From: Acidobacteriota bacterium | Lineage (GTDB): Bacteria > Acidobacteriota > Terriglobia > Terriglobales > Acidobacteriaceae | Direction of reading: 5' to 3' | Assembly: GCA_019241535.1 (NCBI GenBank) | Contig: JAFAWX010000422.1 | Span: 1-44,439 of the forward strand | Length of the DNA: 44,439 nt | Shown here: in pieces, positions 40,530-44,439 of the stretch | Layout of the letters: each line of letters opens with the position of its first letter | Position numbering within the stretch: the stretch's first letter is position 1 | Made by a program: the position numbers and the translations under genes | Notes under the pieces: model-generated | Database searches by the model: none | Told to the model about the DNA's origin: nothing | Seen by the model: the letters and a program-made list of their open reading frames with translations, nothing else

Positions 40530-40764
40530 AACATGTCGGTTCGAATTGCGACAAAGCCGCCAGGGTGAAGAAGGAGAGTAGACTAGGGCTCTCTTGCGGC
40601 TGACCGGTTCGTTCGCATCCTGTCTCAACCAACCGCTGCTCGAGGGCATCGCTGCACCGCCCCCGGTGCTCAAGATCCTAATCAGACCCACCAGGGATCG
40701 GGAAAATACACCCTATGCTCGAACCTTTAAGCGCGGATTGCATCTTACCGGGGCGCCTTCGTAG

Positions 40765-41733
40765 GTGCGCTGGAGCTCTGGCTTGTCTCATTGTGTGAGA
40801 CAGATCTGTACACCATTATTAGCGGCGTTCGTGGTCGCGCTATGCGCGCCCGCCGCTCACGGCCAGATCTCCTTTGCCGCCCAGCCAGTGCTCTCTGACC
40901 GGAGCTTCGCGGCAGGCAGTCTTGTCAACAGCCTGAGCTGGCCGTCTCCCGAGGAAAACGATGGCGCCGGCCACGCTGCACCCGAGCCGCCACAGCCTGC
41001 GCAGGATGAGAGCGGCGGCCTTGTTTCCCGCTCGGTCAAGCGAGGCCTGCAAGATCAAAAACAGCTCTACCTCGCCCCCTTCAAGGCGTCGAATTTCAAA
41101 TGGGACGCATTGGTTCTCGGGGGAACGGCGCTGTTTTTAGCCACCGACCGCCACATTGAGAACAACCTGCCCGGCGGCCACTTCCACCTGTATCAGAACA
41201 CCTCGGACATTGCGATTGGGGGTCTGGCAGGTGCCCTGGCGGGCGTTTGGTTGTATGGCATAAAGACCGAGCATCATCATGCCCGCGAGACCGGAGAACT
41301 TGAACTTGAGGCCCTCGCCGACACTTTCCTTATCTACGCGCCGATGCAGTTGATTGCCGGCCGGCAGCGCCCGGGGGAGGGCAACGGGCATGGAGATTTC
41401 TTGAAGCATCATGCCCTGAACACGTCATTCCCGGGCGGGCATGCCATGTTTACCTGGACTATGGCGACCGTGTTGTCGCATGACTATTCGCAGAAGTGGG
41501 TGCAGGTGGCGGCGTACGGGTCGGCCTTTACCGTGACTCTCACGCGTTTTCTGGCGCGCGATCATTGGGCGTCGGACATGTGGGTGGGGACGGCGCTCGG
41601 AATCGGCATCGGCGCGCACGTATTTCACGCCCATTGCGATCCGGAGCTGAGCCCCAAGTGCCGGCAGCACCACGGGAAAATATTGCCCTTGCTGCATTTG
41701 AGGGGCTCGTCATTCGATCGACTTCAGGAATAG
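40765..41733 (+). CDS. PAP2-superfamily phosphatase
   Basis: A 322-residue exported membrane phosphatase of the PAP2 group, which acts on lipid phosphates such as undecaprenyl pyrophosphate or phosphatidic acid. A signal-like segment (LLAAFVVALCAPAAHG) is followed by a soluble part. The phosphatase motifs then appear: AGRQRP near residue 197, FPGGHAMF near 222, and RFLARDHWASDMWVG near 262. The motif-2 Ser is replaced by Gly (PGGH instead of PSGH), as occurs in several functional family members. GTG 40765 directly follows a stop codon; GTG 40795 is an alternative. The SD is weak. Confidence 0.85.
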   Translation: MRWSSGLSHCVRQICTPLLAAFVVALCAPAAHGQISFAAQPVLSDRSFAAGSLVNSLSWPSPEENDGAGHAAPEPPQPAQDESGGLVSRSVKRGLQDQKQLYLAPFKASNFKWDALVLGGTALFLATDRHIENNLPGGHFHLYQNTSDIAIGGLAGALAGVWLYGIKTEHHHARETGELELEALADTFLIYAPMQLIAGRQRPGEGNGHGDFLKHHALNTSFPGGHAMFTWTMATVLSHDYSQKWVQVAAYGSAFTVTLTRFLARDHWASDMWVGTALGIGIGAHVFHAHCDPELSPKCRQHHGKILPLLHLRGSSFDRLQE

Positions 41734-41909
41734 TAGAGCGTTCGATGATCCACTCGCGGATTCGCCCGGCCCGCAATTCCTCAGCCGGCCGCCGCTAGAA
41801 CGTCCGTTCGAAGACCTGGAGTGGCGGTGAGTTGCTGCGCCGCCAGGCGGGAGTGCCTCTGTGCCGGCGCAAGCATGAACCTGTGTCAGAATCCTTTGCA
41901 TGGTGCAAC

Positions 41910-42781
41910 GTGGACACGATAGGCGCGAACTTCTCCTCCACTGGTCGCATCTTCAGCAGGCAGGAGGCGGGGTTAATGCGCGAGATCACGCAGGACTACG
42001 CCGGATTGGCGGTTACCGAGAGGGCGCGCACGCCCTGCGAACTGTTGGATTGGAACGACCGAATGGGCGATTGATAGACTTCGAATGGCGTCAGCGGCTC
42101 GAATATCTTGATGCGCGAGGATGCTGATGAAGCTTCCGCGCGTGCGCCGCTTGGGATCGCGGGGACCGCGACAGATCCAACTCACCCCAGCCAGTGCGCC
42201 CCAAGCCAGGGTGGAAGGAGGGCGGGGGGAGTTCGACCCTTGGAGTTGCGGGTGGTCGAGAGCCAAGCAGAGAGTCGGCAATGGACGAGCTGATCGAACG
42301 CCATCAGTACCTGAAATACTGCGTACCGGTGGGCGCCAATCTGTGTTACCTGGTGCGTTCCGGAGAGAGAAGGAGTCGTGCTGGCCTGCTTGTTGGTCCT
42401 CACCTGCCTGGCGCGATGCGTGGATCGGCTGGGACGCGGAGCAGCGAGCGCACCATCTGCAGTTGATTGTGAACAACAGTCGTTCCTGGTGCTACCCTGG
42501 GTGCACATCAAAGGACTGGCCAGCAAGATTCTGGCGCACAGTGTGCGCCAGCTCCCCGTTGGCTGGGAGTATTGTCATGGCTACCGACCGTGGTTGCGGG
42601 AAACTTTAATCGATGGGCAAAGGTTTCGTGGGACTTGCTATCGCGCAGCTAACTGGATCCGAGTCGGACAAACCTGGGAGCACACTCATGGGCGAGCGGT
42701 CAAAGAATTTACGTTGATGCGCTGGCGCGCGCCAGCGCCTCTGCGGCAGTTAAGATCGAGGAGAACTACAATGCTGGCTAA
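41910..42781 (+). pseudogene. Decayed DruA-like (DUF4338) gene
   Basis: The remains of one protein can be read across three frames. The order is: frame with REITQDYAGLAVTERA and CELLDW; then RPNGRLIDFEWRQRLEYLDARG; then KLPRVRRLGSRGPRQIQL; then PLELRVVES; then MDELIERHQYLKYCVPVGA and YLVRSGER; then WIGWDAEQRAHHLQLIVNN; then FLVLPWVHIKGLASKIL through WLRETLIDGQRFRGTCY and YRAANWI. The last parts carry the GTCYRAANWIxxGxT hallmark of DUF4338, the domain of the Druantia defence protein DruA and of several IS-associated proteins. About seven frameshifts (near 42050, 42118, 42240, 42283, 42370, 42395 and 42478) make it non-functional. The frame ending TAA 42779-42781 reads VKIEENYNAG. The original start lies near 41899-41910. 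Confidence 0.82.
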
Positions 42782-43409
42782 AAACAGCTCAATCTCAGCG
42801 GAAATTTATTAAATTAAGGTGACTCTGCTCGGCACGCGGCCGCCGATCTGGCGACGCCTATTAGTGCCCGCAAATGTGACGCTGGCGCAATTGCATGACG
42901 TGCTGCAGGTTGCGATGGGATGGCAGGAGTGCCACCTGCACGAATTCACTGCCGGGGGCCGACAGTTCGGGCGACCTGATCCGGAAGACCGATTCATGGG
43001 AATGCCACCGGTCGAAGATGAGCGCAGGGTTCGTCTTTCGAGCGTGTTGAACAGAACTGGCGCGAAAGCCATCTATACGTATGATTTTGGCGACAGTTGG
43101 GAACACAGCATTCTGCTTGAGAAACGCCTGCCAGCTGCTCCCACCATAGCCTACCCGATATGCACGGGCGGCCAGCTTGCATGTCCTCCTGAGGATTGCG
43201 GGAGCATCCCGGGCTTTTACGATCTGCTGGAGGCTCTTCGAGACCCCACACAAGAACAGCACCAAGAACTGCGGGATTGGGTCGGCGACGATTACGATCC
43301 CGAAGAATTCTCCATCGAGGCCGTAAACCGAATACTCACGCGTTTACTTCCGCGCCGAACCAAAACTCCATCCAAGCGGGCGGTGGCCGGTAAAACAACT
43401 ACCATCTAG
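42771..43409 (+). pseudogene. Plasmid pRiA4b ORF-3-like gene with an early in-frame stop
   Basis: The frame from GTG 42819 (196 residues) has every family block: PPIWRRL, LHDVLQVAMGW, HLHEF, YTYDFGDSWEH, and YPICTGGQLACPPEDCGSIPGFYDLL. The family is found on plasmids and near mobile elements and has no firm biochemical role. The natural start appears to be ATG 42771, with AGGAG seven bases upstream. From there the frame reads LAKNSSISAEIY, then TAA at 42810-42812, then IKVTLLG. Other members have YQIKV at this point, so a CAA-to-TAA change best explains it. The downstream frame is intact, so reinitiation at GTG 42819 could still make a nearly full protein. It directly follows the DruA-like remnant. 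Confidence 0.78.
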
Positions 43410-43567: not shown

Positions 43568-43960
43568 CTACCAGATTGTTCTCACCAGAGAACTTCGGCG
43601 GATTGTATTGTCTTTTGTCACGAGATTACTTCCCGAGGTTAATGCTGTCGCTCCAATCAGCCGATCAGCGGGATCTGTTGGGTAGGAAGCCCGCGGGAAT
43701 GCAGCCGCCTGCGCAGCAATTTCGACGGTCAAGGGGAGAATCACCACCCCGGCAGTGATCTTCTTCAGAAAAGCTGGCACTGTCCCGCCAGGGTCAATTC
43801 GGCCGTTGGTAGCAAGCCAGCTCAGCTCCCAAAGTGTCACTGCCGCGATCGAGACGCAATCGTTCTTGAGTTCCTTCCGAATCGCGTCCGCCGCAGCTTT
43901 CGAGAGCTGATCTGGACAGGTTCTCAGCCATACCAACACATGGGTGTCGAGAACGATCAC
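43568..43960 (-). CDS. vapC: VapC-type PIN-domain toxin
   Basis: A 130-residue PIN-domain ribonuclease, the toxin of a type II system that in known cases cuts tRNA or rRNA. The acidic metal-binding residues are all visible: Asp5 in LDTHVLVW, Glu45 in TLWELSWL, Asp96 and Asp99 in YPTDPADRLIGATAL, and Asp117 in LVTKDNTI. The toxin is therefore predicted active. The start is GTG 43960, which overlaps the vapB stop TGA by the GTGA arrangement, giving translational coupling. An in-frame upstream extension to 44035 lies inside vapB and is rejected. Confidence 0.92.
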   Translation of the reverse strand: MIVLDTHVLVWLRTCPDQLSKAAADAIRKELKNDCVSIAAVTLWELSWLATNGRIDPGGTVPAFLKKITAGVVILPLTVEIAAQAAAFPRASYPTDPADRLIGATALTSGSNLVTKDNTIRRSSLVRTIW

Positions 43961-44181
43961 GACGCTTCCCACTCGTCTGTAACCGGCGCCTCGATATCTC
44001 CAAGGATCTTCACCGTGCCGGCGAGATCGCCCCACATATTCCTGCCCTCGCGTTCGGCTGGGACTAGCTTCGCCACCGGGTTACCGTGCTTTGTAATCAC
44101 CACGGACTCGCCAGTCTCGTGGACCTTATCCATCAGGGCAAGACACTTGGCCTTAAACTCAGCTGCAGGAACCGTCTTCAT
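43957..44181 (-). CDS. vapB: VapB/Phd-YefM-type antitoxin
   Basis: A 74-residue antitoxin. The N-terminal half (MKTVPAAEFKAKCLALMDKV, then SVVITKHGNPVAKLVP) is the Phd/YefM DNA-binding dimerisation fold. The C-terminal half is acidic and would wrap the toxin. No SD precedes ATG 44181; the promoter's -10 box ends seven bases before it, so the message is probably leaderless. The gene overlaps vapC by four bases. The dimer would be expected to bind the palindrome just upstream and repress its own operon. Confidence 0.9.
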   Translation of the reverse strand: MKTVPAAEFKAKCLALMDKVHETGESVVITKHGNPVAKLVPAEREGRNMWGDLAGTVKILGDIEAPVTDEWEAS

Positions 44182-44216: not shown

Positions 44217-44439
44217 GTCTTCGTCACTACAGCGGTTACGGAAAGCGATTCGGGTTGGACAATTCACTATCAGTCGAGATCACTTGCGCTCCGTACCTGA
44301 CCCGGCGCGGCTTAGCCGTCTTTCCGGCTTTCTGTCTTGCGGCGCCCCCGCATTGAGCCAGCGCATGGCAGATGCGGTGGTGGCCGCAGTGGCTACAGAA
44401 CTCATCCAAAATTCACCGCTTCTCTTCCCTTCTAGCATG
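44217..44439. other. Right-edge stretch with no supported gene
   Basis: The remaining bases contain only short frames without SD or family resemblance; a gene entering from the right edge cannot be excluded. Confidence 0.35.

Follow-up and report, generated by a model that had tools for sequence, protein, structure and literature searches.

The broken frame at one end of this contig raises the question of what kind of gene once stood there, what it belonged to and what its protein may have done. The original prediction described the ruins of a DruA-like (DUF4338) gene spread over three reading frames, and held that a defence or mobile gene had arrived here and was decaying. The window analysed is the whole of contig 374 (44,439 nucleotides) of an Acidobacteriota genome assembled in 425 contigs (4.95 Mb). 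We conclude, with a probability of about 0.92, that it contains the right half of a defunct insertion sequence of the IS66 family, with a druA-like gene and a PRiA4_ORF3 gene as its cargo. The intact relatives of the druA-like gene suggest, more tentatively, an idea about the function of the protein family itself.

The broken druA-like gene

The region was compared with intact relatives, taken from 80 loci found in a scan of bacterial and archaeal genomes, using a purpose-built frameshift-tolerant protein-DNA aligner. Alignment of positions 41700-42830 with the intact protein L063 gave a score of 742. None of 100 shuffles scored above 55 and none of 74 other stretches of the contig above 50, and the best single frame reached a score of only 387. 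The frame-spanning protein is therefore real. More specifically, the forward strand at 41910-42753 matches a DruA-like (DUF4338) protein of about 290 residues across frames, covering residues 2-290 of L063 with 174 of 266 residues identical (about 66%) and without any in-frame stop. The hallmark GTCYRAANWI is present in the relic.

Between six and nine frame shifts are needed to read the gene. Six are robust and the remaining one to three vary with the shift penalty, so that the earlier count of at least seven is fair. The shift sites lie near 42054, 42122, 42235, 42285, 42374-42392, 42481 and 42710-42725, and several codons are also missing by in-frame losses. As anticipated, standard gene callers see fragments only. 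The start of the relic at about 41910 agrees with the original prediction; its 3' end does not, as the druA-like gene stops at about 42753 and the predicted end, 42781, already lies inside the following gene, PRiA4_ORF3.

Family membership was assessed independently of L063 using the Pfam DruA profile (PF14236), which matches the relic in two different frames: at 42378-42809, one frame alone scores 34.7 bits, above the cut-off of 27, and at 42121-42606 a different frame scores 24.1 bits, below it. Together with the full-length match to L063, this result supports the assignment to DUF4338.

The IS66 element around the gene

The proteins closest to the relic are those of loci L063, L065, L068, L066, L064 and L061. 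The tree pairs the relic with the IS66-borne L063 as its sister (support 98/90), the end branch being 0.39 for the relic vs 0.15 for L063. An IS66-type transposase gene lies just upstream of the druA-like gene and on the same strand at seven loci (L063, L064, L065, L066, L068, L069 and L072); the transposase was identified by Pfam in L063 and L066, and by NCBIfam as well in L066. All seven elements share the ends GTATTTGTTTACCG and CGGTAAACAAATAC with at most two mismatches, and three of them (L066, L068 and L072) are flanked by perfect 8-bp target duplications. L066 is organized as tnpC, druA-like (2065-2940), PRiA4_ORF3 and right end, with the PRiA4_ORF3 gene, itself frame-broken, directly after the druA-like gene. 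Neither tnpA nor tnpB was detected in those tnpC elements that are nearest to the relic. More broadly, at 38 of 79 sampled loci of close relatives a co-directional IS66 transposase gene lies no more than 600 bp away; outside Druantia, DUF4338 genes are thus often IS66 cargo. The papers searched described no IS66 element that carries DruA or PRiA4.

At the DNA level, the window aligns with L066 in one unbroken stretch, 41918-43402 (66% identity), which runs up to the tip of the right inverted repeat and therefore identifies the window copy as the right half of an IS66 element that is now dead. The alignment with L063 covers 41833-42673 (67%). Taken together, these alignments outline a remnant at 41833-43402 on the forward strand, comprising possibly the end of tnpC, the druA-like relic, PRiA4_ORF3 and a degraded right inverted repeat. 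This repeat, at 43388-43402 (forward strand), was recognized from the end of the L066 alignment and by comparison with intact ends, and reads CGGTAAAACAACTAC vs CGGTAAACAAATAC in intact elements. The mobile origin proposed earlier is borne out, since the nearest intact relatives reside in IS66 elements. However, the original prediction overlooked PRiA4_ORF3 and the right inverted repeat as parts of the same dead element.

The left side of the element is largely gone. DNA matching the end of tnpC in L063 points, weakly, to a possible tail of about 15 codons with its stop (41833-41878, forward strand), which scores no better than shuffles by protein alignment. An IS66-type DDE transposase (TnpC) is found in L063 and L066 and, apart from this possible tail, is lacking in the window copy, which we therefore call a remnant rather than an element. 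No left inverted repeat was found in 40700-41950, and the 8 bp following the right repeat do not recur in the window, which fits a loss of the left end by deletion. Given these two absences and the weakly supported tnpC tail, the left boundary is provisional.

The ancestor would have been an IS66-family element of about 3 kb with inverted repeats starting GTATTTGTTTACCG and the gene order tnpC (encoding the DDE transposase), druA-like and PRiA4_ORF3, which duplicated 8 bp of target upon insertion. This gene content is modelled on L066, because the sister copy L063 has no PRiA4. A deletion would then have taken the left end and tnpC, thereby rendering the element immobile, and we infer that the druA-like gene subsequently decayed mainly through small deletions.

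PRiA4_ORF3 occupies 42771-43409 on the forward strand and matches its Pfam family (PF07929) over nearly the full length with 216 bits. Its protein is 70.7% identical to that of L066, compared to 57-61% for other IS66 copies (L201-L203) and at most 54.2% for all others. A ribosome-binding-site-like GAGGAG (42758-42763, forward strand) precedes the original start codon at 42771, but the reading frame meets a stop at codon 14 (42810-42812). The frame reopens at a GTG (42819) and continues across the right repeat, its final stop codon lying beyond the element. An IS66 element with five genes at L202:115-4082, in the order tnpA, tnpB, druA-like, tnpC and PRiA4_ORF3, also carries both genes, indicating that druA-like and PRiA4 form a recurrent IS66 cargo pair.

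DruA-like genes were also observed in other settings. About 40 of the 79 close relatives have no adjoining IS66 transposase (for example L077, L079, L081-L088, L095 and L100), and some of these stand alone among ordinary chromosomal genes; L077 and L095 (Geobacter-like) have similar settings. We considered whether such solo genes are one-gene transposons and rejected this, as no terminal repeats clearly above shuffles were found except at L113, where a 23-bp inverted pair made of a short repeated unit surrounds a lone DruA-like gene (L113:2560-3675). At L044:6361-8700 a DruA-like domain is fused to a DDE_Tnp_1 transposase, and at L043:302-3237 a DruA-like gene lies just before a DUF772 transposase; association with transposases is therefore not limited to IS66.

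The scan of seven genus mates revealed neither a DruA gene nor an empty insertion site. The remnant is flanked upstream by a PAP2 gene. In one genus mate (G006) this PAP2 gene is followed by a different neighbour, and another (G004) has a PRiA4 copy elsewhere; in both, the DNA is only about 65% alike. Just downstream of the dead element, the window carries a gene for a PIN-domain (toxin-like) protein on the minus strand (43568-44035). The last stretch of the window, 44274-44439, is found again at contig ends elsewhere in this genome, in C406 (78%) and C418 (98%), so that the contig probably ends in a repeat.

Decay, sequencing error, retention and defence

The druA-like gene could be intact, with the shifts representing errors of sequencing or assembly, in keeping with the lack of in-frame stops in about 266 codons and with the fact that several shifts are single-base events. 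Yet the relic has changes in 9 of the 76 columns that do not vary among close intact relatives (median for these relatives, 1), which argues that the shifts are not just sequencing slips. Counting only sites where seven other genes agree, the changes specific to the relic fall on codon positions 1, 2 and 3 in the numbers 12, 16 and 3, and those of L063 in the numbers 2, 4 and 7 (Fisher p 0.003), so that those of the relic sit on positions 1 and 2. Several whole codons have been lost, the adjoining PRiA4_ORF3 carries a stop and tnpC is missing. We consequently judge an artefact very unlikely, chiefly on account of the substitution excess at conserved sites and the whole-codon losses, and read the gene as having decayed in place, as was originally proposed. 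For one part of the dead element a milder variant, compatible with this explanation, deserves consideration, namely that PRiA4_ORF3 was retained as a working gene, translated from the GTG at 42819 or by re-initiation downstream of the early stop. It shows no frame break in about 636 nt vs 7-11 length changes in about 845 nt of the druA-like gene, and with equal rates such an unbroken frame would have a chance of 0.02 to 0.002 (about 0.01), which hints at retention without proving it. Moreover, the protein deviates at a single one of 26 invariant columns, and dN/dS relative to L066 is about 0.15, although this signal may mostly predate the death of the element. The stop at codon 14, however, separates the well-placed start from the rest of the gene, no clear ribosome-binding site precedes the GTG, and the frame crosses the right repeat to stop beyond the element. 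Retention of PRiA4_ORF3 thus appears rather unlikely to us, if far from negligible.

The defence half of the original prediction fared worse. A transferred and decaying Druantia anti-phage system is suggested by the name of the Pfam family, DruA, and by weak matches of the intact IS-linked relatives to the PADLOC DruA models (E 7e-7 for L063). However, the kin of the relic align only with positions of about 34-228 of the 297 in the Pfam DruA model, about two thirds, whereas long DruA proteins of related genomes span this model in full (2-297). The MZB domain is expected in DruE, the helicase of Druantia. A search for this domain (PF09369), positive in 8 of 14 control genomes, gave no match in the genome carrying the relic at E 0.001, nor does this genome have a second DruA copy. 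The neighbours of the relic are IS66 cargo. With the wrong, short and IS-linked subfamily, IS66 kin and no DruE-type domain, we reject a Druantia remnant as extremely improbable, even more so than a sequencing artefact. Since DUF4338 genes outside Druantia are so often IS66 cargo, a match to the DruA domain is by itself no ground for assigning a gene to phage defence. As a relic, the find is ordinary: a dead insertion sequence.

Apparent relation to phage Mu Mom and comparison with known systems

What the druA-like cargo does in intact elements was addressed using the relatives. In the model predicted for the L066 protein (mean pLDDT 89.6, pTM 0.68), residues of about 103-283 adopt a GNAT-type fold, and DUF4338 has already been termed a GNAT domain in a 2024 paper (PMC10853773). 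Among solved structures, the top match of this model is phage Mu Mom (Foldseek E 6e-6), and VIA-align 2 superimposes the two with a Z of 14.8 and an rmsd of 3.5 over 164 residues, the next match having a Z of 12.9. In terms of sequence, 37 of 51 IS-linked relatives match Pfam Mom (PF25680) at E<=1, the best at 6.4e-5; the two relatives with scores shown reach 14.2 and 13.2 bits, below the cut-off of 27.1 bits. Two long DruA proteins gave no Pfam Mom match. A profile-profile comparison using hhalign against nine phage Mom-like proteins yielded a probability of 96.1 (E 3.2e-9), and the Mom residues H48, R101, G146, Y149, A151, N153 and G158 align with positions at which all 51 relatives agree, the pairing of R101 being read by eye in a loosely aligned region. 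A sequence search of the PDB with the DruA-like profile returned nothing meaningful; the link to Mom came from comparing structures and profiles. Taken together, the profile-profile match and the fold argue for common ancestry, and the IS-linked DruA-like proteins appear to be GNAT-fold proteins distantly related to phage Mu Mom. None of the papers searched mentions DruA together with Mom.

Mom modifies adenines in Mu DNA. Judging from fold and motifs only, the intact druA-like protein probably modifies DNA in a Mom-like manner, protecting or marking its element. In its wider form, we hold the idea to be possible though not likely: the DruA-like proteins carried by insertion sequences, IS66 and others, would be Mom-type base-modifying enzymes that shield or mark transposon DNA, with DruA of Druantia as a diverged member. 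Mom-like DNA modification offers a concrete and testable idea for the function of DruA-like proteins. The relic should do nothing, because the position matching H48 of Mom no longer holds the histidine, a frame shift falls in the codon that corresponds to R101 and a GRGR stretch is lost.

Compared to known systems, the related elements resemble the IS66 family (tnpC-type; PF03050, NF033517) in gene order, ends and 8-bp duplications, and the right repeat survives in the window copy. They differ from it in carrying two extra genes, druA-like and PRiA4_ORF3; those nearest the relic showed no tnpA or tnpB, and the window copy further lacks tnpC and the left end. The window gene departs from the PRiA4_ORF3 family in being IS66 cargo with an early stop. 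With DruA of Druantia (PF14236), the relic and its kin have the DUF4338 domain in common, whereas the IS-linked form has about 290 residues, matches the model in part and occurs without druE or a defence context. The intact relatives share with phage Mu Mom (PF25680) the GNAT-type fold, the HY and GxxYxAxN-xxxxG motifs and a significant profile match; unlike Mom, the IS-linked proteins have about 100 additional N-terminal residues and stay under the Pfam Mom cut-off, and the relic is broken. If the proposed function holds, the parallel would extend further, as Mom shields or marks the DNA of a transposing phage in the way that the DruA-like cargo would for its transposon.
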